Assembly (NCBI GenBank): GCA_947624965.1
Contig: CANQMN010000015.1
Coordinates: 1-43,807 of the forward strand
Length of the DNA: 43,807 nucleotides
Source of the DNA: an uncultured Clostridia bacterium
GTDB lineage: Bacteria > Bacillota > Clostridia > Christensenellales > Borkfalkiaceae
Direction: 5' to 3'
The notes under the pieces were generated by a model. The model did no database searches and was not told where the DNA came from. It was given only the letters and a program-made list of their open reading frames with translations. Positions 8,931 to 43,807 of the stretch are shown here, one piece after another; position 1 is the stretch's first letter; every line of letters starts with the position of its first letter. Both the position numbers and the translations under genes were made by a program.

Positions 8931-9110
8931 CCCGTGGCAGAAAAGCGCATCGCCGCAAGGCGACAGAAGCAAAGGTGTTGACCCTTACTTCCAACGCGCG
9001 GCGGAGGAACTCGCGCGTTTCGGCGGCGATACCCTTTCCCTTCGCCGTTGTGGCGGAGAGCCTCTTCTCTCCTTCGGCGGGGTACTCATGTTCTGCCGCT
9101 CCTCTTTTGA
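8906..9110 (-). ncRNA. Lysine riboswitch (L box) in the asd-dapA-dapB leader
   Basis: Read on the minus strand, the leader matches conserved blocks of the lysine riboswitch in order: GAGGAGCGGC then ATGAGTA near the 5' end, GAAGGGAAAGGG followed by TCGCCGCCGAA in the middle, a stem AAGTAAGGGT/ACACCTTTGCTT, and TTCTGTCGCC near the 3' end. The same blocks occur in the T. maritima and B. subtilis lysine aptamers as I remember them. The aptamer (about 8945-9110) is followed by a terminator hairpin and then asd. Lysine binding should favour termination. No covariance-model search was run. Confidence 0.85.
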
Positions 9111-9119
9111 GCAAAATCA

Positions 9120-35273: not shown

Positions 35274-36026
35274 ATGGAAGAGGGAAGGGTGCTTACCGCC
35301 TCGGAAGCGGCGGAATACGGGGAATTCAAGCGGGCGCGAAGGGAAGCGGAAGTTGCGCTCACCTTGCGGAAATTGGTGCTCGACGCCTCGCGGAGAGAGG
35401 CGGACAAACACGCGGTCAAGCACGCGTGCGACTGTGCGAGAAAGCTCGGGGCGAGCTCGGTGCTCGTCTCCCCCGTGAACGTCGTGTACGCGCGGCGGCA
35501 GCTCGACGGCTGCGAGACGGTCGTCTCCTGCCTCGTCGGCGGGACAGGGGAGAGCCTCGTCGCCGTCAAGCGCGCGGAGGCGCGGCGCGCGGCGCGGCAG
35601 GGCGCGCGGGAGATCAGGCTCGTCCTCTGTTATTCCGCCTTGACGGCGGGCAATTTCGGTTATCTCAAAAAGGAGATCAAGCGCGTGCGGAAGGCGGTGA
35701 AACATTGCGCGACCGTCGTCTCGCTCGAAGACCACGCGCTCGGGGAGGAGGACGTCGTTTTCGGCGTCCGCGCCGCGGCGGAAGCGGGGGCGGACGGCGT
35801 CTGCGTGCGGGGAGAGACCGCGCTCCTCGACCGCGCGGTACGGACGGCGCGGGGAAAGCTCCGCACGGACGTCTCGGGGGTGGAAAACGCCGAACAGCTC
35901 CGCCTTCTCCTCAAAGCGGGCGCCGTCCGCGCGGGGACGGGGGACGGCGAACGCATCGCAGAGGAGATGTACCGCGCGGCGGAGACGCCGCCCGCCGCGC
36001 CCGAACCGCTTCCGACAGAGAGTTAG
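35274..36026 (+). CDS. DeoC-like aldolase homologue lacking catalytic residues
   Basis: 250 residues. The chain aligns by eye along most of deoxyribose-phosphate aldolase: LGASSVLVSPVNVVYARRQL, the strand VSCLVGGTGESLVAVKRAEARRA, GAREIRLVLCYSALTAGNFGYL and EAGADGVCVRGE, then LLLKAGAVRAGTGDGERIAEEM. The residues needed for Schiff-base catalysis are not there: EIDxV is EIRLV, the KTSTG lysine position reads CVRGE, and the second lysine (VKxxGG) reads RTDVSG. It is therefore probably not an aldolase. A GTG at 35289 with GAGGG upstream is a good alternative start, because the ATG at 35274 has no SD. A sigma-E-like promoter and a strong terminator bracket it. Confidence 0.75.
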   Translation: MEEGRVLTASEAAEYGEFKRARREAEVALTLRKLVLDASRREADKHAVKHACDCARKLGASSVLVSPVNVVYARRQLDGCETVVSCLVGGTGESLVAVKRAEARRAARQGAREIRLVLCYSALTAGNFGYLKKEIKRVRKAVKHCATVVSLEDHALGEEDVVFGVRAAAEAGADGVCVRGETALLDRAVRTARGKLRTDVSGVENAEQLRLLLKAGAVRAGTGDGERIAEEMYRAAETPPAAPEPLPTES

Positions 36027-36035
36027 GGAGTTTTC

Positions 36036-36061
36036 CGCGCCGCCTTCGACGGCGCGTTTTT
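36036..36061 (+). terminator. Terminator of the DeoC-like gene
   Basis: CGCGCCG/CGGCGCG (36036-36042 and 36050-36056) over a TTCG-containing loop, followed by five T residues. Confidence 0.88.
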
Positions 36062-36135
36062 ATGGGGAAAAAGCGCGAACGGAAAGAAATTCCCGCCGCC
36101 TTCGGTGAAATTCTCGAAAACCGCTTAAAATCGCT

Positions 36136-36163
36136 TTGAAATTTCGGGAAAATATTGTAAAAT
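36136..36163 (+). promoter_or_regulatory. Promoter of secA
   Basis: TTGAAA (36136-36141), 16-nt spacer, TAAAAT (36158-36163). The leader to the chosen secA ATG is about 46 nt. Confidence 0.65.
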
Positions 36164-36215
36164 AATACGGTGAAATATTATGTCGCGCACAGCGCGCGAA
36201 ACGGAGCCGAAGTCA

Positions 36216-39152
36216 ATGGGACTTATCAGTTACATCATGGGCGGCGACAGCCGCAAGAGCTTAAAAAAGCTGAATAAAACCGCGCTCGAAGTGGAAAAGC
36301 GCGAGCCGAAGTATCAGGCGATGAGCGACGCGGAATTGCAGGGGCAGACCGCTCTTTTCAAAGAGCGGCTCCGCGCAGGGGAAACGCTCGAACAGATCCT
36401 CCCCGACGCCTTCGCGGCGCTTCGCGAAGCGAGCTGGCGCGTGCTCGGGATGAAACACTTCCACGTCCAGATCGTCGGCGGGATCTGCCTCTTCCAAGGG
36501 CGTATCGCCGAGATGAAGACGGGCGAAGGCAAAACGCTCGTCGCGACCCTTCCCGCCTATCTCGCCGCGCTCGAAGGCAAGGGCGTGCACATCGTAACGG
36601 TCAACGATTATCTCGCCCGCCGCGACGCGGAGTGGATGGGCAAAGTGCATAAATTCATGGGGCTTACGGTGGGTGTCGTCGTACCCGGCATGGAGGACGA
36701 CGACAAGCGCGCCGCCTATCAGTGCGACATCACCTACGGCACGAACAACGAGTTCGGGTTCGATTATCTGCGCGACAATCTCAAATCCGATCTCCGTCTC
36801 ATGGTCCAGCGGGATCTGCATTTCGCCATCGTGGACGAGGTGGACTCCATTCTCATCGACGAAGCGCGGACGCCGCTCATCATTTCGGGCAGAGGGGAGC
36901 AATCCTCCGAGCTGTACGAGCGGGTGGATAAATTCGTGCGGACGCTCACGGGCGGCTTCGACGACGATCTCAAAGAGGCGGAGGAAGAGGAAAACCGCAG
37001 AAAGCGGCGCGACAGGGAATCCGGCGCGCAGAAAGTCCGTCTCGCCGAGGCGCTCAATTGGGATTACGTCATTCAGCGCAAGGAAAAGCAGGTCCAGCTC
37101 ACCGAGTACGGCGCGGAGAAGGCGGAGAGATTTTTCAACATCGATAACGTTGCGGACATCGCGCATTCCTCGCTCAACCATCACATCCAGCAGGCGCTCA
37201 AAGCGCACAAACTGTTCCACCTCAACGAAGAGTATATCATCCGTTCGGGGAAGGACGGCAACGATGAGATCGTCATCGTAGACGAGTTCACGGGGCGTCT
37301 CATGGAGGGACGCCGCTATTCGGACGGTCTGCATCAGGCGATCGAGGCGAAGGAGGGCGTGAAGATCCGCGAGGAGAACAAGACGTTCGCGACCATCACG
37401 TTCCAGAATTATTTCCGTCTCTATCAAAAACTCTCGGGCATGACTGGTACCGCCAAGACGGAGGAGGGCGAGTTCCGCACCATCTATTCTTTGGACGTCA
37501 TCGAGATCCCCACTAACCGCCCCGTGCGCCGCGTAGACGAGCACGACAGGATCTTTTCCACGTTGGAGGGGAAGAAGAAGGCGATCGTCCGCGAGATCGT
37601 GGAGCGGCACGAAAAGGGGCAGCCCGTGCTCGTCGGCACCGTCTCCGTCGATAAATCGGAGGAGATCTCCCGCCTTTTGCGGCGGAACGGCATCCAGCAC
37701 AACATCCTCAACGCGAAGAACCACGAACGCGAGGCGGAGATCGTCGCGCAGGCGGGCAGGTATGGCGCCGTCACCATCTCCACCAACATGGCGGGGCGCG
37801 GAACGGATATCCTTTTGGGCGGCAACCCCGAATATCTCGCGAAGAAGCGGCTCCGCGAGGAGGGCGTGGAGCGCGAAGTCATCGAACTTGCGACGAGCTA
37901 TGCCGAACTCGACGAGGAGACGCAGAAGGTGCGCGACCGTTACGACGAGCTCTATGCGGCGTACAAAAAGCAGACGGACGAGGAAAAGGAAAAGGTGATC
38001 GCTACGGGCGGGCTCTGCATCATCGGCACGGAACGCCACGAGAGCCGCCGTATCGACAACCAGCTCCGCGGACGTTCCGGGCGGCAGGGCGACCCCGGCG
38101 CTTCGGTGTTCTTCCTCTCGCTCGAAGACGATCTGATGCTCCGCTTCGGCGGCGAGCGCATGAAGAAAATTTATACGATGTCCAAGATGGAGGAGGACGA
38201 ATGCCTCGAAAGCAAGCTCCTCACCCGTCTCATCGAGTATGCCCAAAAGCAGATCGAGGGCAGGAACTTCGGCATCCGCAAGAACGTCTTGCAGTATGAC
38301 GACGTGATGAACAAACAGCGCATGATCATGTATGCGGAGCGCATGAAAGTCATCAAGGGCGAGAGCGTGCACGATCAGGTGCTCAAATACATTCCGGACT
38401 ATGTGCGGACCGTCGTGGGCGGCGCGGTCAACATCGAAGATATCCCCGAAAAGTGGAACGAGGAGGATCTCAATGAGGCGATCGAGCGCAAGCTCATTCC
38501 CGAGGGGAGCGCGTACGTCACCCGCGAAAAGTTGGAGAAGTGGGAATACGAAACGGCGATCCGCAAGATCTCCAAAAAGACGGAACAGTGCTACGAGGAA
38601 AAGATCGCGAAGATACAAGCGGAGACGCCCGTCAACTTTGCGGACGTGGAACGCCGCGTCCTTCTGCGCGTCGTTGATACCAACTGGATCGACCATATCG
38701 ACGCGATGGACCAGCTCCGCAAGGGCATCGGTCTGCGCGCGTACGGACAGTCCGATCCCATCATCTCCTACAAACAAGAGGGCTTTGCCATGTTCGACGA
38801 GATGGTGGAGCGCATCCAGGAGCGCACGATCGCCATTTTGCTCAAAGCCCAACTCGAAGTGCGCACTGCGCCGACGCCCCGCATCATGCCTTCCGCCCCC
38901 GCGCCCCGCGCCGCGGCGGAACCCGCCGCACAGCCCGCGCCCGCCGCGCCCGCATCTGCGCCTGCGGCGCCCGCCGCCGTGCCCGAAGTCGCGAACGTGC
39001 CCGCCGCCGTCAACGTGGACGCGCTGAAAACGAGCGGGGAAACCAAGTTCAATCCCGCCTCGATGAAGAAGGGGAAGAAACCGGGACCCAACGATCCCTG
39101 CCCCTGCGGGAGCGGTCTCAAATACAAGAAGTGCCACGGCAAACCGTTTTAA
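36216..39152 (+). CDS. secA: Preprotein translocase ATPase SecA
   Basis: Motor that drives secretory proteins through SecYEG at the inner face of the membrane. 978 residues including Walker A MKTGEGKT at 100-107, DEVDSILIDEARTPL (Walker B), the preprotein cross-linking domain, NMAGRGTDILLGG, RQGDPG and the helical scaffold/wing domains. After them come an Ala/Pro-rich linker (about 890-945) and the zinc-binding SEC-C tail PCPCGSGLKYKKCHG. I chose ATG 36216: it yields the usual start MGLISYIMGG, has GGAG 9 nt upstream and a 46-nt leader. An in-frame ATG at 36180 would add 12 untypical residues. The essential house-keeping SecA is the obvious identity. Confidence 0.97.
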   Translation: MGLISYIMGGDSRKSLKKLNKTALEVEKREPKYQAMSDAELQGQTALFKERLRAGETLEQILPDAFAALREASWRVLGMKHFHVQIVGGICLFQGRIAEMKTGEGKTLVATLPAYLAALEGKGVHIVTVNDYLARRDAEWMGKVHKFMGLTVGVVVPGMEDDDKRAAYQCDITYGTNNEFGFDYLRDNLKSDLRLMVQRDLHFAIVDEVDSILIDEARTPLIISGRGEQSSELYERVDKFVRTLTGGFDDDLKEAEEEENRRKRRDRESGAQKVRLAEALNWDYVIQRKEKQVQLTEYGAEKAERFFNIDNVADIAHSSLNHHIQQALKAHKLFHLNEEYIIRSGKDGNDEIVIVDEFTGRLMEGRRYSDGLHQAIEAKEGVKIREENKTFATITFQNYFRLYQKLSGMTGTAKTEEGEFRTIYSLDVIEIPTNRPVRRVDEHDRIFSTLEGKKKAIVREIVERHEKGQPVLVGTVSVDKSEEISRLLRRNGIQHNILNAKNHEREAEIVAQAGRYGAVTISTNMAGRGTDILLGGNPEYLAKKRLREEGVEREVIELATSYAELDEETQKVRDRYDELYAAYKKQTDEEKEKVIATGGLCIIGTERHESRRIDNQLRGRSGRQGDPGASVFFLSLEDDLMLRFGGERMKKIYTMSKMEEDECLESKLLTRLIEYAQKQIEGRNFGIRKNVLQYDDVMNKQRMIMYAERMKVIKGESVHDQVLKYIPDYVRTVVGGAVNIEDIPEKWNEEDLNEAIERKLIPEGSAYVTREKLEKWEYETAIRKISKKTEQCYEEKIAKIQAETPVNFADVERRVLLRVVDTNWIDHIDAMDQLRKGIGLRAYGQSDPIISYKQEGFAMFDEMVERIQERTIAILLKAQLEVRTAPTPRIMPSAPAPRAAAEPAAQPAPAAPASAPAAPAAVPEVANVPAAVNVDALKTSGETKFNPASMKKGKKPGPNDPCPCGSGLKYKKCHGKPF

Positions 39153-39178
39153 CTTTTACGGATCCTGTGATACAAGCG

Positions 39179-39463
39179 CGCCTCTTGCCTACTCCCATTG
39201 AAGCGGGTAAAAGCGCTTCTTATCTACTCCCATTGAAGCGGGGGGGGAAGCGCCTCTTGCCTGTCCCATTGAAGCGGGGTAAACGCGTTTCTTACTTACT
39301 TCCATTGAAGCGGGCAAAAGTGCTTCTTACTTACTCCCATTGAAGCGAGCAAAAGTTCTTTTTATCAACTCCCTTCGAGACGGAGCAAAAGTTCTTCTTA
39401 TCTACTCACTTTGGGGCGGGGTAAAAGCTCTTATTCTTGCCCGCCCCCTTTCAAGGGGGCGGG
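39179..39463. repeat. Tandem degenerate 36-bp repeats between secA and prfB
   Basis: Seven direct units of 33-37 bp lie head to tail (39179, 39214, 39251, 39284, 39321, 39356, 39392), each close to CGCTTCTTACTTACTCCC then ATTGAAGCGGGTAAAAG. An eighth, divergent unit (from 39428) ends in a strong hairpin, CCCGCCCCCTT/AAGGGGGCGGG (39440-39450 and 39453-39463). The whole unit repeats, with no unique spacers, so this is not a CRISPR array. Units carry a small CCC/GGG inverted repeat. This is the only content of the 372-nt gap between the two genes. Confidence 0.88.
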
Positions 39464-39524
39464 GTAGGGGTGGGGGTCAAAAAACGCCCCGCACAAAACT
39501 CATTCCGACCGGATCGACACGACT

Positions 39525-40622
39525 ATGTTCAAAGCAGACGATTACAGATTAAAGATCAAGTCTCTCGAAGAGACGCTCGCAGAGGCAAAATACGCGCTCG
39601 ACATCGATAACCGCATCGCGCGGCTCGAAGCGTTGAAGCGCGAACAGGAGGACCCCGCCGTCTGGCAGGATCTCGAACGTTCGGCGAAGATCGGTCGCGA
39701 GATCTCTTCCAACGAGGACAAGATCGCCTCCTACCGCAAGGGGCGCAAGGCGCTCGACGACGCGAACGAGATCATCGATCTCATCGAGGAGACGGAGGAC
39801 GAGGAGCTCGTGCCCGAACTCGATAAGATGATGACGGAGGCGGAGCAGGATATCGAGGAAATGCGCGTGCGTGCGCTTCTCCGCGGCAAATACGACAGTT
39901 CGGACGCGCTCCTCTCCATCCATGCGGGCGCGGGCGGCACGGAGGCGTGCGACTGGGTCTCCATGCTCTACCGCATGTATTGCCGCTATGCCGAGCGCAG
40001 CGGCTTCAAAGTTACCGAAATAGACCGTCTCGCGGGGGACTCCGCGGGGCTCAAATCGGTGGACTTCAAAGTGGAAGGGGAGAACGCGTACGGCTATCTG
40101 AAAGCGGAGATCGGCGTGCACCGCCTCGTGCGCATTTCGCCGTTCGACGCGAACAAACGCCGCCAAACGTCGTTCGCCTCCCTCGAAGTCATGCCCGAGG
40201 TGGACGACGACAACGAAATTGAGATAAAGGACGAGGATATCCGCATCGACGTCTATCGTTCGTCGGGCGCGGGCGGACAGAAAGTCAACAAAACAGAGAC
40301 CGCCATCCGCATCACCCACTTCCCCACGGGCATCGTGGTAACCTGCCAAAACGAGCGGAGCCAGCTCCAAAACAAGGAAATGGCGTTCAAATATCTGCGC
40401 TCCCGTCTGCTCGAAAAGCAGATCGAACAGCGCAACGCGGAGGAAGCCGCACTCAAAGGGGAGACGAAGAAAATCGAATGGGGCTCGCAGATCCGCTCCT
40501 ATGTCTTCTGCCCGTATACGCTCGTCAAGGATCACCGCACGGGCTATGAAGTCGGGGACGTGCAATCGGTGATGGACGGCAACATTCAGGGATTTATCAT
40601 CGACTATCTCAAAAAATCGTAA
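39525..40622 (+). CDS. prfB: Peptide chain release factor 2
   Basis: Recognises UGA and UAA stop codons and releases the peptide. 365 residues with the stop-codon-reading SPF motif (ISPFDANKRRQTSF), the GGQ motif (SSGAGGQKVNKTET at about 246-260) and the RF2-type C-terminus. The whole gene reads in one frame. In many bacteria RF2 needs a programmed +1 shift at an early CTT-TGA; here the equivalent region (YALDIDNRIARLE) has no in-frame TGA, so this autoregulation is absent. The ATG at 39525 has only a weak GGA upstream. It lies behind the tandem-repeat block. Confidence 0.96.
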   Translation: MFKADDYRLKIKSLEETLAEAKYALDIDNRIARLEALKREQEDPAVWQDLERSAKIGREISSNEDKIASYRKGRKALDDANEIIDLIEETEDEELVPELDKMMTEAEQDIEEMRVRALLRGKYDSSDALLSIHAGAGGTEACDWVSMLYRMYCRYAERSGFKVTEIDRLAGDSAGLKSVDFKVEGENAYGYLKAEIGVHRLVRISPFDANKRRQTSFASLEVMPEVDDDNEIEIKDEDIRIDVYRSSGAGGQKVNKTETAIRITHFPTGIVVTCQNERSQLQNKEMAFKYLRSRLLEKQIEQRNAEEAALKGETKKIEWGSQIRSYVFCPYTLVKDHRTGYEVGDVQSVMDGNIQGFIIDYLKKS

Positions 40623-40628
40623 TTTTTT

Positions 40629-40648
40629 CCGCCCCCGGAGAGGGGCGG
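40629..40648 (+). other. Hairpin in the prfB-tsaD gap
   Basis: CCGCCCC/GGGGCGG with loop CGGAGA, 14 nt before the tsaD ATG. It has no T-run on its 3' side in either direction, so it is not a standard terminator; the only purine-rich SD-like bases for tsaD lie inside it. Confidence 0.5.
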
Positions 40649-40662
40649 TCTCACTTTGGTCC

Positions 40663-41673
40663 ATGAAGGAAGAACCTATCATTCTCGGAATCGAAAGCTC
40701 GTGCGACGAGACGGCTGCCGCGGTCATCCGCGGCAGAACGCTCCTTTCGGACGAGATCGTCTCCTCGGCGGAGGAACAGGCGCTGTACGGCGGCGTCGTG
40801 CCGGAGCTTGCCTCGCGGGCGCACGCCGTCGCGGTGGACGCCGTCGTCTTGCGCGCGCTTGCGCGTGCGGGCGTAAAAAAGGAGGAGCTCGACGCCGTCG
40901 CCGTAACGTACGGGGCGGGGCTTCTCGGCGCGCTCCTCGTGGGACTCTCCTTCGCCAAGGGGTTTGCCTACGGGCTGGGCGTTCCTCTTATCGGCGTCGA
41001 TCACATCCGCGGACATCTTGCGGCGGCGTATTTGGAGGATACGACGCTCCGTCCGCCCTTCGTCTCCCTGCTCGCGAGCGGGGGACATACGGCGGTGCTG
41101 TACGCCGAGTCGGAGACAAAGTTTGAAGTGCTCGGCGGCACGCTCGACGACGCCGCGGGCGAGGCGTTCGACAAGGTCGCGCGCGTGCTCGGGCTTCCCT
41201 ATCCGGGCGGACCGCGCGTCGAGGCGCTCGCGCGGGAGGGGGACCCCGTCGTCCCCATGCCCAAGATGTTGAAGGGCGTCGGCGGTTACGATTTTTCTTA
41301 CAGCGGATTGAAGACGTACATCGTCAACTACGTCCACACGATGGAACAGCGGGGCGCGCCGTGGAGCCGTGCGGACGTCGCCGCTTCCTTCCAGTGCGCC
41401 GCGCTCGATATCCTTGCGGAGAAGGCGGTCGAGGGCGCGCTCGAAAAACACGTCCCCGTCGTAACCGCGGGGGGAGGCGTCGTCGCGAACGGCTATCTTC
41501 GTGAAAAGTTGCAGATGGGGTGCGAAAAAGCGGGCTTGAAGCTCGTGCTCCCCGAGAAAAAGCACTGTACGGACAACGCCGCCATGATCGCCGCGGAGGG
41601 GCTCGTGCAATATCGCGCGGGAAACTTTTCCCCGCTCTCCCTCAACGCCGAGGCGAGCATCCCCTTGCGTTGA
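40663..41673 (+). CDS. tsaD: tRNA N6-adenosine threonylcarbamoyltransferase
   Basis: Transfers threonylcarbamoyl to A37 of tRNAs reading ANN codons, together with TsaB and TsaE, which are not in this window. 336 residues. The ASKHA fold and metal site are intact: GIESSCDETAAAVI at the N-terminus, the metal-binding HIRGHLAAAYL, LLASGGHTAVLY, LGGTLDDAAGEAFDKVARVLGLPYPGGP, and TAGGGVVANGYLREKL. Length matches the family. SD is poor (TTTGGTCC) and a hairpin lies immediately upstream. A terminator follows whose T-run touches the spoVAD start codon. Confidence 0.96.
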   Translation: MKEEPIILGIESSCDETAAAVIRGRTLLSDEIVSSAEEQALYGGVVPELASRAHAVAVDAVVLRALARAGVKKEELDAVAVTYGAGLLGALLVGLSFAKGFAYGLGVPLIGVDHIRGHLAAAYLEDTTLRPPFVSLLASGGHTAVLYAESETKFEVLGGTLDDAAGEAFDKVARVLGLPYPGGPRVEALAREGDPVVPMPKMLKGVGGYDFSYSGLKTYIVNYVHTMEQRGAPWSRADVAASFQCAALDILAEKAVEGALEKHVPVVTAGGGVVANGYLREKLQMGCEKAGLKLVLPEKKHCTDNAAMIAAEGLVQYRAGNFSPLSLNAEASIPLR

Positions 41674-41691
41674 ACGCACGCATATCTTTCG

Positions 41692-41726
41692 ACCCGATTG
41701 CCGAAACTGCAATCGGGTATCTTTTT
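41692..41726 (+). terminator. Terminator of tsaD abutting the spoVAD start
   Basis: Perfect 10-bp stem ACCCGATTGC/GCAATCGGGT (41692-41701 and 41709-41718), 7-nt loop, then ATCTTTTT ending one base before the spoVAD ATG (41727). Confidence 0.85.
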
Positions 41727-42719
41727 ATGGGGAATCAGACCATCTATTTCAAAAAGGAACCGCGCATCGTCGCGACGAGCACGATCGCGGGTCCCAAGGA
41801 GTGCGAAGGGGTCATCGGCAGGTATGTGGAGACCGCGCTTGCGGACGATATGTTCGGGGAAAGCACGTACGAAAAGGCGGAATGCAAGATGCTGTCGCAC
41901 GTCATCGACGGCGCGATCGTAAACGGCGGTTTCAAGCGGGAGCAGATCGATCTCATCGTCTCGGGCGATCTTCTCAACCAGATCATCTCGGCGAGCTTCG
42001 CCGCGCGCGATTTTTCCATTCCCTTCCTCGGCGTGTACGGCGCGTGTTCCACGATGGCGGAGAGCCTCGCCGTTGCGGCGGCGTTCGCGGAAGCGGGGCT
42101 GTGCCACCGCATCGTCGCGGCGACGGGCAGCCATTTTGCCTCGGCGGAACGGCAATACCGCTACCCGCTCGAACTCGGCTGTACCCGCCCGCCGCAGTCG
42201 CAGTGGACGGTGACGGGCGCGGGCGCCGCGCTCGTTGCGGACAGCGGCGACGGGGTGCGTATCACTTCGGCGACACTCGGAAAGGTGGTGGATTTCGGCA
42301 TCACCGACGTAAACAACATGGGTGCGGCAATGGCGCCCGCCGCGGCGGACACCATATTGGCGCATTTCCGCGGCACGCGGGAGGATCCGGGGATGTACGA
42401 TCTCATCGTAACGGGAGATCTGGGCGCGCTGGGGAGCCGCATCCTCAAAGACCTGACATGGGAAAAGGGGTTGGACATCTCCGCCAACCACGTCGATTGC
42501 GGCGAGATCGTCTACAAGGTCATCGAGGACGAATATCAGGGGGGAAGCGGCGCAGGCTGTTCCGCCGTCGTGCTCAATTCCTATTTGCACACGAAGATGA
42601 TGACGGGCTCCCTGAAACGCATTCTCTTTGTCGCGACGGGCGCGCTGCTTTCCACCGTCTCGTCGGGACAGGGGGAGAGCATCCCCTGCATCGCGCACGC
42701 GGTAACGTTGGAGCGGTAA
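41727..42719 (+). CDS. spoVAD: Stage V sporulation protein AD
   Basis: Part of the SpoVA channel complex that moves dipicolinic acid into the forespore and out during germination; SpoVAD binds dipicolinate directly. 330 residues with the thiolase-like fold and family motifs GPKECEGVIG, GVYGACSTMAESL, GSHFASAERQYRYPLE, TDVNNMGAAMAPAAADT and CSAVVLNSYLHTKM. The start gives the usual MGNQTIYF-like N-terminus. The SD (GGGT) lies within the 3' arm of the tsaD terminator. The gene upstream is tsaD, not spoVAC, so the usual spoVAC-spoVAD-spoVAE order is broken here. spoVAE follows 15 nt downstream. Confidence 0.95.
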   Translation: MGNQTIYFKKEPRIVATSTIAGPKECEGVIGRYVETALADDMFGESTYEKAECKMLSHVIDGAIVNGGFKREQIDLIVSGDLLNQIISASFAARDFSIPFLGVYGACSTMAESLAVAAAFAEAGLCHRIVAATGSHFASAERQYRYPLELGCTRPPQSQWTVTGAGAALVADSGDGVRITSATLGKVVDFGITDVNNMGAAMAPAAADTILAHFRGTREDPGMYDLIVTGDLGALGSRILKDLTWEKGLDISANHVDCGEIVYKVIEDEYQGGSGAGCSAVVLNSYLHTKMMTGSLKRILFVATGALLSTVSSGQGESIPCIAHAVTLER

Positions 42720-42734
42720 ACTCCCCCGCTACAT

Positions 42735-43112
42735 ATGGAATTTTTGGAAATCGCACTCATGTTCGTTAAGGCGTTCGCCGTGGGCGGGCTCATCTGCACG
42801 ATCGCGCAGATCATCATCAATTTTACGGAACTCACCGCGGGGAAGATCCTCGTCATGTTCATGCTGGCGGGGGTCGTCCTCACCGCGCTCGGACTGTATC
42901 AGCCCCTCGTCGAGTTTGCGGGTGCGGGCGCGACGGTGCCCATCTCCGGGTTCGGATATCTGCTTGCGAACGGCGCGATGAAGGGGGCGCAGGAGGGGCT
43001 GTTTCAGGCGCTCACGGGACCGCTCGTCGCCGCAAGCGCGGGCGTATCCGCCGCCGTCGTGTTTTCCTTTCTCATGGCGCTCATCTTCAAATCGCACACA
43101 AAGTACAATTAA
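42735..43112 (+). CDS. spoVAE: Stage V sporulation protein AE
   Basis: Membrane subunit of the SpoVA dipicolinate channel. 125 residues and four hydrophobic segments, at about 5-29, 36-57, 63-85 and 92-116. The family pattern is visible in AFAVGGLICTIAQIIINFT, PLVEFAGAGATVPISGFGYLLANGAMKGA and GLFQALTGPL. It lies 15 nt after spoVAD without a convincing SD, so its translation is probably coupled to spoVAD. Forespore (sigma-G) expression is known for the family, but I could not identify the promoter here. Confidence 0.95.
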   Translation: MEFLEIALMFVKAFAVGGLICTIAQIIINFTELTAGKILVMFMLAGVVLTALGLYQPLVEFAGAGATVPISGFGYLLANGAMKGAQEGLFQALTGPLVAASAGVSAAVVFSFLMALIFKSHTKYN

Positions 43113-43237
43113 AGGAATAATCGCGCCGAAACGGCAATACAATAGCGAAGAGAGGGGAGTTTTCCACCGAATGGAGGGGAAAACGGCATTGTCGCCGCCC
43201 GCTGTATATACGGCAATTCATGCAAAGTTGGAAAAAG

Positions 43238-43353
43238 TTATCCACAATTTTTCCACTTATCCGCACGTTTTTTCCACAATCCGACAAAAAACATTTGTTT
43301 TGGACGGGAATCGCCGCGCATGCTATCCACAGATTGAAATTTTCTGTGGATAT
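43238..43353. promoter_or_regulatory. Cluster of DnaA-box-like sites
   Basis: One perfect DnaA box TTATCCACA (43238-43246) and four one-mismatch sites: TTATCCGCA (43257-43265), TTTTCCACA (43270-43278), CTATCCACA (43323-43331) and, inverted, TGTGGATAT (43345-43353). Five sites in 116 bp of AT-rich DNA is well above background. It could be an origin or a DnaA-titrating or regulatory cluster. No dnaA, dnaN or rpmH gene is visible. Confidence 0.65.
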
Positions 43354-43375
43354 TTGTTTTTGCGGGCAAAAACCG

Positions 43376-43404
43376 TTGACAAACCGCTTGCGAAAGGGTA
43401 TAAT
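43376..43404 (+). promoter_or_regulatory. Perfect consensus promoter of the tRNA-like array
   Basis: TTGACA (43376-43381), 17-nt spacer, TATAAT (43399-43404). The start near 43411 lies 17 nt before the first tRNA-like module, as expected for a stable RNA operon. Confidence 0.85.
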
Positions 43405-43427
43405 AGCCATTGTTTGAAAACCGATAT

Positions 43428-43574
43428 GCGCCGTTAGCTCAATTGGATAGAGCGTTGGTCTATCGGTGCAAAGGTTAGGATTCGCCCCGCGCGCTTCTAT
43501 CGTTATCCAAGCGCGGCACGAGCGTCCGCAGGACGCGAAGTAGTTCCTGTAAGGAACGAGAACAAACTGAATAT
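43428..43574 (+). pseudogene. tRNA-like module A, incomplete
   Basis: The acceptor 5' strand and D-arm are normal. The anticodon arm is damaged: TTGGT cannot pair fully with TGCAA around CTATCGG. The T-arm starts (TTAGGATTCG) but breaks off after TTCG and continues as CCCCGCGCGC instead of the second T-stem strand, and no acceptor 3' strand follows. It should not fold as a tRNA. Confidence 0.6.
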
Positions 43575-43724
43575 GCGCCGTTAGCTCAATTGGATAGAGC
43601 GTTGAACTATCGGTGTCAAAGGATAGGATTCGCCCCGCGCGCGCTTCTATCGTTATCCAAGCGCGGCACGAGCGTCCACAGGACGCGAAGTAGTTCCTGT
43701 AAGGAACGAGAACAAACTGAATAT
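43575..43724 (+). pseudogene. tRNA-like module B, incomplete
   Basis: Nearly identical to module A. The anticodon arm reads TTGA with ACTATCGGTG and TCAA, giving an over-long loop or a stem with a mismatch. The T-arm breaks at the same base, after GGATTCG. A two-base GC insertion and an A for G in the spacer are the main other differences. Confidence 0.6.
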
Positions 43725-43795
43725 GCGCCGTTAGCTCAATTGGATAGAGCGTTGGTCTACGGAACCAAAGGCGAAAACTCCGTAAAATTGAATAT
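43725..43795 (+). pseudogene. tRNA-Arg(ACG)-like module C, lacking T-arm and 3' acceptor strand
   Basis: Acceptor 5' strand, D-arm and anticodon arm are perfect: stem TTGGT/ACCAA around CTACGGA gives anticodon ACG (Arg). After AAAGG the sequence turns into GCGAAAACTCCGTAAAATTG and the next module begins, so the T-arm and acceptor 3' strand are absent. TACGGA in the anticodon loop is complementary to TCCGTA at 43779-43784. Confidence 0.6.
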
Positions 43796-43807
43796 GCGCC
43801 ATTAGCT

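Follow-up and report, generated by a model that had tools for sequence, protein, structure and literature searches.

A short palindromic repeat in the T-loop of tandem, broken tRNA-Arg copies at a contig end of an uncultured Clostridia bacterium

Why should a bacterium carry several broken copies of one tRNA-Arg gene, in tandem and behind a perfect promoter? The window analysed here, a stretch of 43,807 nt, is contig C15 of the draft genome of an uncultured Clostridia bacterium (1.79 Mb in 34 contigs), and its edge at 43807 is a true contig end. From 43428 to that end the 5′ part of tRNA-Arg(ACG) is repeated in three modules and the start of a fourth. A sequence-only reading had proposed site-specific insertion by integrases at the T-loop, a tRNA-mimic RNA, or collapse or chimerism at the contig end. 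Comparison with the intact genes of relatives, together with pattern and repeat searches, gave the following features.

43376 to 43404, plus strand: promoter of the tRNA-Arg(ACG) locus, TTGACA (43376-43381), 17 nt, TATAAT (43399-43404); 12/12 match.
43428 to 43574 (147 nt), plus strand: module A; opens with the tRNA-Arg 5′ part as far as TTCG, followed by element E, the 3′ strand of the T-arm plus its inverted copy, and the leader of the next copy.
43485 to 43541 (57 nt), plus strand: element E of module A, between TTCG (43481-43484) and the T-loop AGTTCC; pattern match, boundary set by intact tRNA-Arg.
43542 to 43557, plus strand: T-arm 3′ strand and inverted copy of module A (GTTCCT GTA AGGAAC); shuffle p 0.012.
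43575 to 43724 (150 nt), plus strand: module B, built as module A; the shared 125-nt stretch is 97% identical.
43633 to 43691 (59 nt), plus strand: element E of module B; pattern match.
43692 to 43707, plus strand: T-arm 3′ strand and inverted copy of module B; shuffle p 0.006.
43725 to 43795 (71 nt), plus strand: module C; tRNA-Arg 5′ part that extends to the end of an intact anticodon (ACG) arm, followed by 24 nt of tail; no E; assembly less certain.
43796 to 43807 (12 nt), plus strand: module D; opening of a further tRNA-Arg copy (GCGCCATTAGCT), truncated where the contig stops and perhaps the working gene.

Repeat finding bore out the described layout. The 125-nt stretch recurs at a spacing of 150 nt, a 51-nt tRNA 5′ part is present three times (the others at least 90% identical to the first), and a 23-nt match opens the fourth repeat and is cut by the window edge; TRF returned a period of 150 with 96% matches. 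As the earlier reading had it, modules A and B leave the tRNA match right after TTCG, module C does so after its anticodon arm, and every module lacks the acceptor 3′ strand. The GC-rich spacer of that reading does contain the two hairpins described, but it is a dispersed repeat of 57 or 59 nt, here named E, and a third hairpin follows it. Measured against intact genes of relatives, E in A and B was placed exactly between TTCG and the A of the T-loop. After E the tRNA resumes for a few bases (AGTTCCT), and the third hairpin forms with their own inverted copy. The tail end of module C resembles the leader of the other modules.

The sequence-only reading had called for a tRNA search of the array and a count of intact tRNA-Arg(ACG) genes elsewhere in the genome. 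ARAGORN called no tRNA in the array, a complete cloverleaf with acceptor stem was found nowhere in it, and no Rfam 15 family exceeded its gathering score there; at a relaxed E-value module C was the sole match, with 27.5 bits against a gathering score of 29. The whole assembly gave 39 tRNA hits, of which ARAGORN typed 38; tRNA-Arg genes for TCT, CCG and CCT are present, and the count of intact tRNA-Arg(ACG) among those 38 typed hits is zero. The 39th hit (C10:52069-52136) received no ARAGORN call. In this genome the exact D-arm 20-mer of tRNA-Arg(ACG) occurs in modules A, B and C only, and it is absent from C10 even at two mismatches.

In relatives, an intact gene follows the broken copies; the working tRNA-Arg(ACG) gene therefore most likely lies past 43807, perhaps starting as module D. 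This arginine tRNA gene beside the array is probably essential. In this assembly tRNAs also stand at the ends of several other contigs. E is missing from module C, and the tail of the module has a match in just one other of 103 genomes (G084:C6:34532-34559), where it follows a different tRNA 5′ part and again lies close to the end of a contig. The last 83 bases of the window, modules C and D, may therefore be mis-assembled.

The promoter is perfect, as first described, but its −10 box ends 23 nt before module A and not 17 nt upstream of the array. With at most two mismatches, a promoter of the same type stands at 29 of 30 chosen tRNA-Arg loci, single-copy loci included. It is the ordinary promoter of a tRNA-Arg(ACG) gene. 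Upstream of the array lie tsaD, spoVAD and a spoVAC/spoVAEB-type gene, and the host thus carries sporulation genes. Just upstream of the promoter, at 43238, we observed one exact DnaA-box-like TTATCCACA (0.19 expected in the window), with near copies by eye within 43238-43350; again by eye, two relatives have similar boxes ahead of the same tRNA. Elsewhere in the window, an imperfect tandem repeat of about 35 nt occupies 39178-39432 between secA-like and prfB-like reading frames (gene names by eye), and a lysine riboswitch lies on the minus strand at 8935-9114 (75.2 bits).

E is a repeat family. When the array was searched against 61 genomes (its own, 36 of the genus and 24 of the order), matches fell into two kinds, one to the tRNA part and one to the spacer, the latter in same-genus genomes only among the matches listed. 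In a set of 61 genomes all of the same genus, a pattern for E matched 841 times, in 31 of them (a sum over per-genome rows, in which overlapping matches may be included), and its reversed control matched 0 times. Matches reach 90 per genome and lie on both strands; the array's own genome has 12 at 11 places, five of which are T-loops. At least 80 of the 116 E-bearing stretches in named genomes come from uncultured Clostridia whose label, Lapin, is French for rabbit.

Family-wide, E measures about 50–60 nt, runs from CCCC to GAAGT and has two helices. Its two stems covary, with 92.0% of cells paired versus 73.5% when shuffled and 27.6–47.5% when slid; across 56 distinct copies, helix 1 was paired in all cells, with changes on both sides at two of its six pairs, and helix 2 was paired in 79%. 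The 244 copies in retrieved loci begin with CCCC in 207 cases, are preceded by G in 214 and have A after GAAGT in 229. Over the 217 of these 244 copies that have a clean left end, the target motif is YYG/A (the slash marks the insertion point), mostly YYG/AG, and a GTCAY-type flank precedes 92 of the 244. Examined copies lie mostly away from tRNAs, at the same motif, and E is also found inserted within other repeats. In contig C5 of the array's own genome (L008 1100-1210) one E appears by eye to lie within another at CACG/AGG. On contig C13 (L136 1905-2080) a second E after tRNA-Arg(CCT) seems by eye to hold an insert of about 100 nt in its first stem-loop, and its right flank is that of the preceding E.

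In viral contigs, exact matches to two E patterns and to the module C tail numbered zero, and we rejected a phage origin of E on that result. A phage collection held two records with partial matches, one annotated as tRNA-Thr and one unannotated.

The split seen in modules A and B recurs in related genomes and beside several tRNA species, where tRNA copies that are otherwise whole hold E in their T-loop. Across 103 same-genus genomes, a pattern for E in the T-loop picked out 23 sites, which belong to 12 of the genomes (none for the control), and a second pattern added three downstream tRNA-Tyr(GTA) sites, giving 26 in all, most of them in Arg, Glu, Ser or Tyr tRNA copies. According to ARAGORN, an intact tRNA of the same kind lies within the fetched locus at 17 of the 23 sites, and this holds for all three Tyr sites. 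The six sites without one comprise both sites of our own array, L304 at the end of a contig, a pair in G112 whose locus begins 240 nt before the first E, and G080:C50, where 479 nt of upstream sequence contain no intact tRNA. In G112 (L294 1-240) a reading frame that looks recombinase-like by eye, with no Pfam match, ends at a tRNA-Arg(CCT)-like 3′ fragment beside two E-split copies.

The layout of broken copies varies between species. They stand upstream of the intact tRNA for Arg-ACG, Arg-CCT and Glu-CTC, and downstream of it for Arg-ACG, Arg-CCT, Glu-CTC, Glu-TTC, Ser-TGA, Ser-CGA and Tyr-GTA. In other species a broken upstream copy with an intact tRNA-Arg(ACG) downstream is found inside contigs, and in Arg-ACG loci the inserted unit is about 130–160 nt. 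By a simple tally over the 61 same-genus genomes, E is present in 10 of 11 genomes with at least two D-arm copies versus 17 of 26 with one; the eleventh multi-copy genome, G067, has a variant E by eye.

All 26 T-loop insertions are in the tRNA sense orientation. TCGA is palindromic, yet a search for reverse insertions that covered the T-loops of Arg, Glu and Ser tRNAs found none among the seven places it caught: three were Ser sites already counted, three were Tyr sites in sense and one had no tRNA in its locus. A second site in tRNA-Arg(ACG), used in other species, is the anticodon stem at ACCG/A (ACCA/A in two genomes). On the plus strand of 21 distinct intact Arg-ACG sequences, YYG/A occurs in the T-loop (all 21) and at ACCG/A (10) and at no other place; the minus strand has further YYG/A sites, such as one in the D-arm.

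Removing E in silico restored a tRNA call across the junction in six of 41 copies at tRNA-linked loci (ARAGORN). These were Arg-CCT in G106, G002 and G010, Glu-CTC in G009, Ile(aat) in G126, which is a copy with a changed anticodon arm, and Arg-ACG in G080, where a downstream tRNA-Arg copy with a 52-nt E in its T-loop was called as tRNA-Arg(acg) once joined. The other 35 joined copies, modules A and B among them, gave no call, and in a broader set, which leaves out the loci of five of the six restored copies, G080 included, none of 244 joined flank pairs gave a tRNA. Most broken copies have therefore lost or changed more than E explains.

Hairpins stand beside E. In upstream copies, an inverted copy of the few tRNA bases after E comes next, for example GTTCCT GTA AGGAAC in our array and TTCCCGTC GGGA GACGGGAA in Arg-CCT. 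Among 22 upstream modules, a set without locus G115 whose members are not mutually independent, the hairpin following E was significant against shuffles (p ≤ 0.05) in 14 and not in eight. In downstream copies a mirror hairpin (for example, CGAACCC ATC GGGTTCG) precedes E, significant in 10 of 16 and not in six; the upstream Glu copy of our own genome has no mirror hairpin before E. Because the hairpin tracks each tRNA's own sequence, separate fold-back events would be the simplest account of the hairpins beside E, related modules not being independent. Template switching is reported to produce inverted copies of local sequence and so perfect hairpins in RNA genes (PMC8794818); the hairpins here are likewise inverted local copies, but each of them adjoins an inserted repeat as well as a direct gene copy. 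Over non-redundant E sites in general, a hairpin stood directly beside E at 17 of 88 versus 30 of 528 control sites (p 7.5e-5), an excess to which we give little weight because the set includes loci fetched for their tRNA, and pairing of the flanks across E was not higher than at control sites (p 0.054). As a separate observation, a tRNA-Glu terminator hairpin in G071 (L128 2490-2560) runs on, by eye, into sequence that repeats the tRNA 3′ end in inverted form.

MITEs and IS200/IS605 palindrome-associated elements are small, bear hairpins and insert without visible target duplication. E is like the palindromes mobilised by IS200/IS605 in its short motif YYG/A and its clean junctions in tRNA copies. 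It is unlike them in that the presence of a Y1 transposase does not follow E in these incomplete draft genomes: Y1_Tnp was found in seven of 31 E-bearing versus eight of 30 E-free genomes (Fisher p 0.77) and is absent from the array's own draft. Within the same drafts, RVT_1 occurred in seven of 31 E-bearing versus three of 30 E-free genomes (Fisher p 0.30), and IS110 was above cut-off in three of the 61, all E-free. Without an association to E, the Y1 transposase, IS110 and reverse transcriptase were each rejected as its mover. An unsystematic look for an autonomous element sharing the ends of E found none.

E also resembles bacterial REPs, which Di Nocera et al. (2013, PMC3733652) describe as short, dispersed palindromes of many copies, some lying inside other palindromes, and which include a CGTC-tagged class for which that account found no dedicated transposase. 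Like those, E is short, palindromic, abundant, on both strands, in one case (by eye) nested, and associated with none of the three enzyme families examined; the GTCAY-type flank before 92 of its 244 copies is a further likeness. Unlike the tagged REPs of the same account, which are one 20–40-bp hairpin with an unpaired tag, E has two stems in about 50–60 nt and its end carries neither GTAG nor CGTC. In the passages of that account considered here, REPs are named in protein genes, including those of tRNA-modifying enzymes, and not in tRNA genes. A search of the open-licence literature with a few word choices found no earlier description of a repeat like this within the tRNA genes of bacteria. 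As far as the literature searched goes, the repeat family E and the way it splits the T-loops of tRNAs are new, and short palindromic repeats as a kind are already known.

Taken together, we consider it probable that the array is a tandem of spare tRNA-Arg(ACG) copies split by E, lying between the promoter and a working copy past the contig end, and that E is or was mobile. The recurrence of E at different sites suggests such movement, presumably by an enzyme acting in trans. E would have inserted many times at YYG/A sites, and two of the spare copies would have been split in the T-loop. Fold-back template switching during replication, at insertion or later, may have produced the tandem and inverted copies. 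One remaining intact copy would let cells survive, and the broken copies, transcribed together with the tRNA, would themselves be without function. More tentatively, and with considerable doubt, we can imagine E as a geneless, tRNA-targeting mobile unit of 50–60 nt that enters T-loops and anticodon stems in the sense direction through single-stranded DNA or even RNA, each surviving insertion being tied to a fold-back and a direct duplication that rebuild an intact tRNA, so that the target is restored as with integrating islands.

The T-loop is a common breakpoint of tRNA-gene islands, and the modules could instead be scars of integrase elements, with a displaced tRNA part left behind, the element deleted and E a part of the attachment site. 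The breakpoints do lie in the T-loop, the G112 frame left of the E copies looks recombinase-like by eye, though its Pfam scan is empty, and the downstream copies, with intact tRNA, terminator and T-loop 3′ half, resemble the pairing of a regenerated gene with a displaced fragment by which islands are recognised (Islander, PMC4383910). In contrast to the islands of that account, however, E occurs hundreds of times in these genomes, mostly off tRNAs in the copies examined, and both 5′ and 3′ halves are found duplicated, the upstream copies duplicating the 5′ half. Insertions also occur at the anticodon-stem ACCG/A and, by eye, inside another E; the inserted unit, of about 150 nt, contains no integrase and cargo between regenerated tRNA and fragment, and by eye no integrase was seen among the reading frames of 36000-43807. 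We regard integrase scars as unlikely. The T-loop part of the earlier proposal stands, as repeated insertion, but what was inserted is a palindromic repeat at YYG/A and not an integrase-borne island.

That reading's tRNA mimic is not supported: compared with shuffled sequence, the folds of modules A, B and C show no added stability (z −0.85, −0.65 and −0.32). A functional leader RNA or decoy made of broken copies and E, controlling the maturation or supply of tRNA-Arg, would fit the strong shared promoter, the three local hairpins predicted in each of A and B, and the loss of the anticodon with retention of the D-arm in several T-loop-type copies. Against it stand the absence of excess fold stability, a layout that differs by species, upstream or downstream, and the single copy in 42 of 59 genomes with the D-arm 20-mer; we find it very improbable. 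An assembly artefact at the contig end seems least credible of all. The contig does end within the array, and the tail of module C is shared with G084, next to another tRNA 5′ part and again near a contig end, but in other genomes the architecture of A and B recurs within contigs and is followed by an intact gene. Collapse or chimerism is on that ground refuted as a general explanation, but may apply to C and D. Because relatives of E also split spare tRNA copies in related genomes, most of the array looks, from sequence comparison, like a real, recurring gene disruption rather than a sequencing fault.

Short-read assemblies of such genomes can, this array suggests, break off at loci of this kind, so that an essential tRNA seems missing, as here. 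Within one genus, a short palindromic repeat has repeatedly entered copies of Arg, Glu, Ser and Tyr tRNAs while an intact copy was kept alongside. The many pairs with and without E offer a route to the way in which REP-like repeats that lack a known transposase are moved, and the same pairs offer one to how tRNA gene copies arise and vanish.
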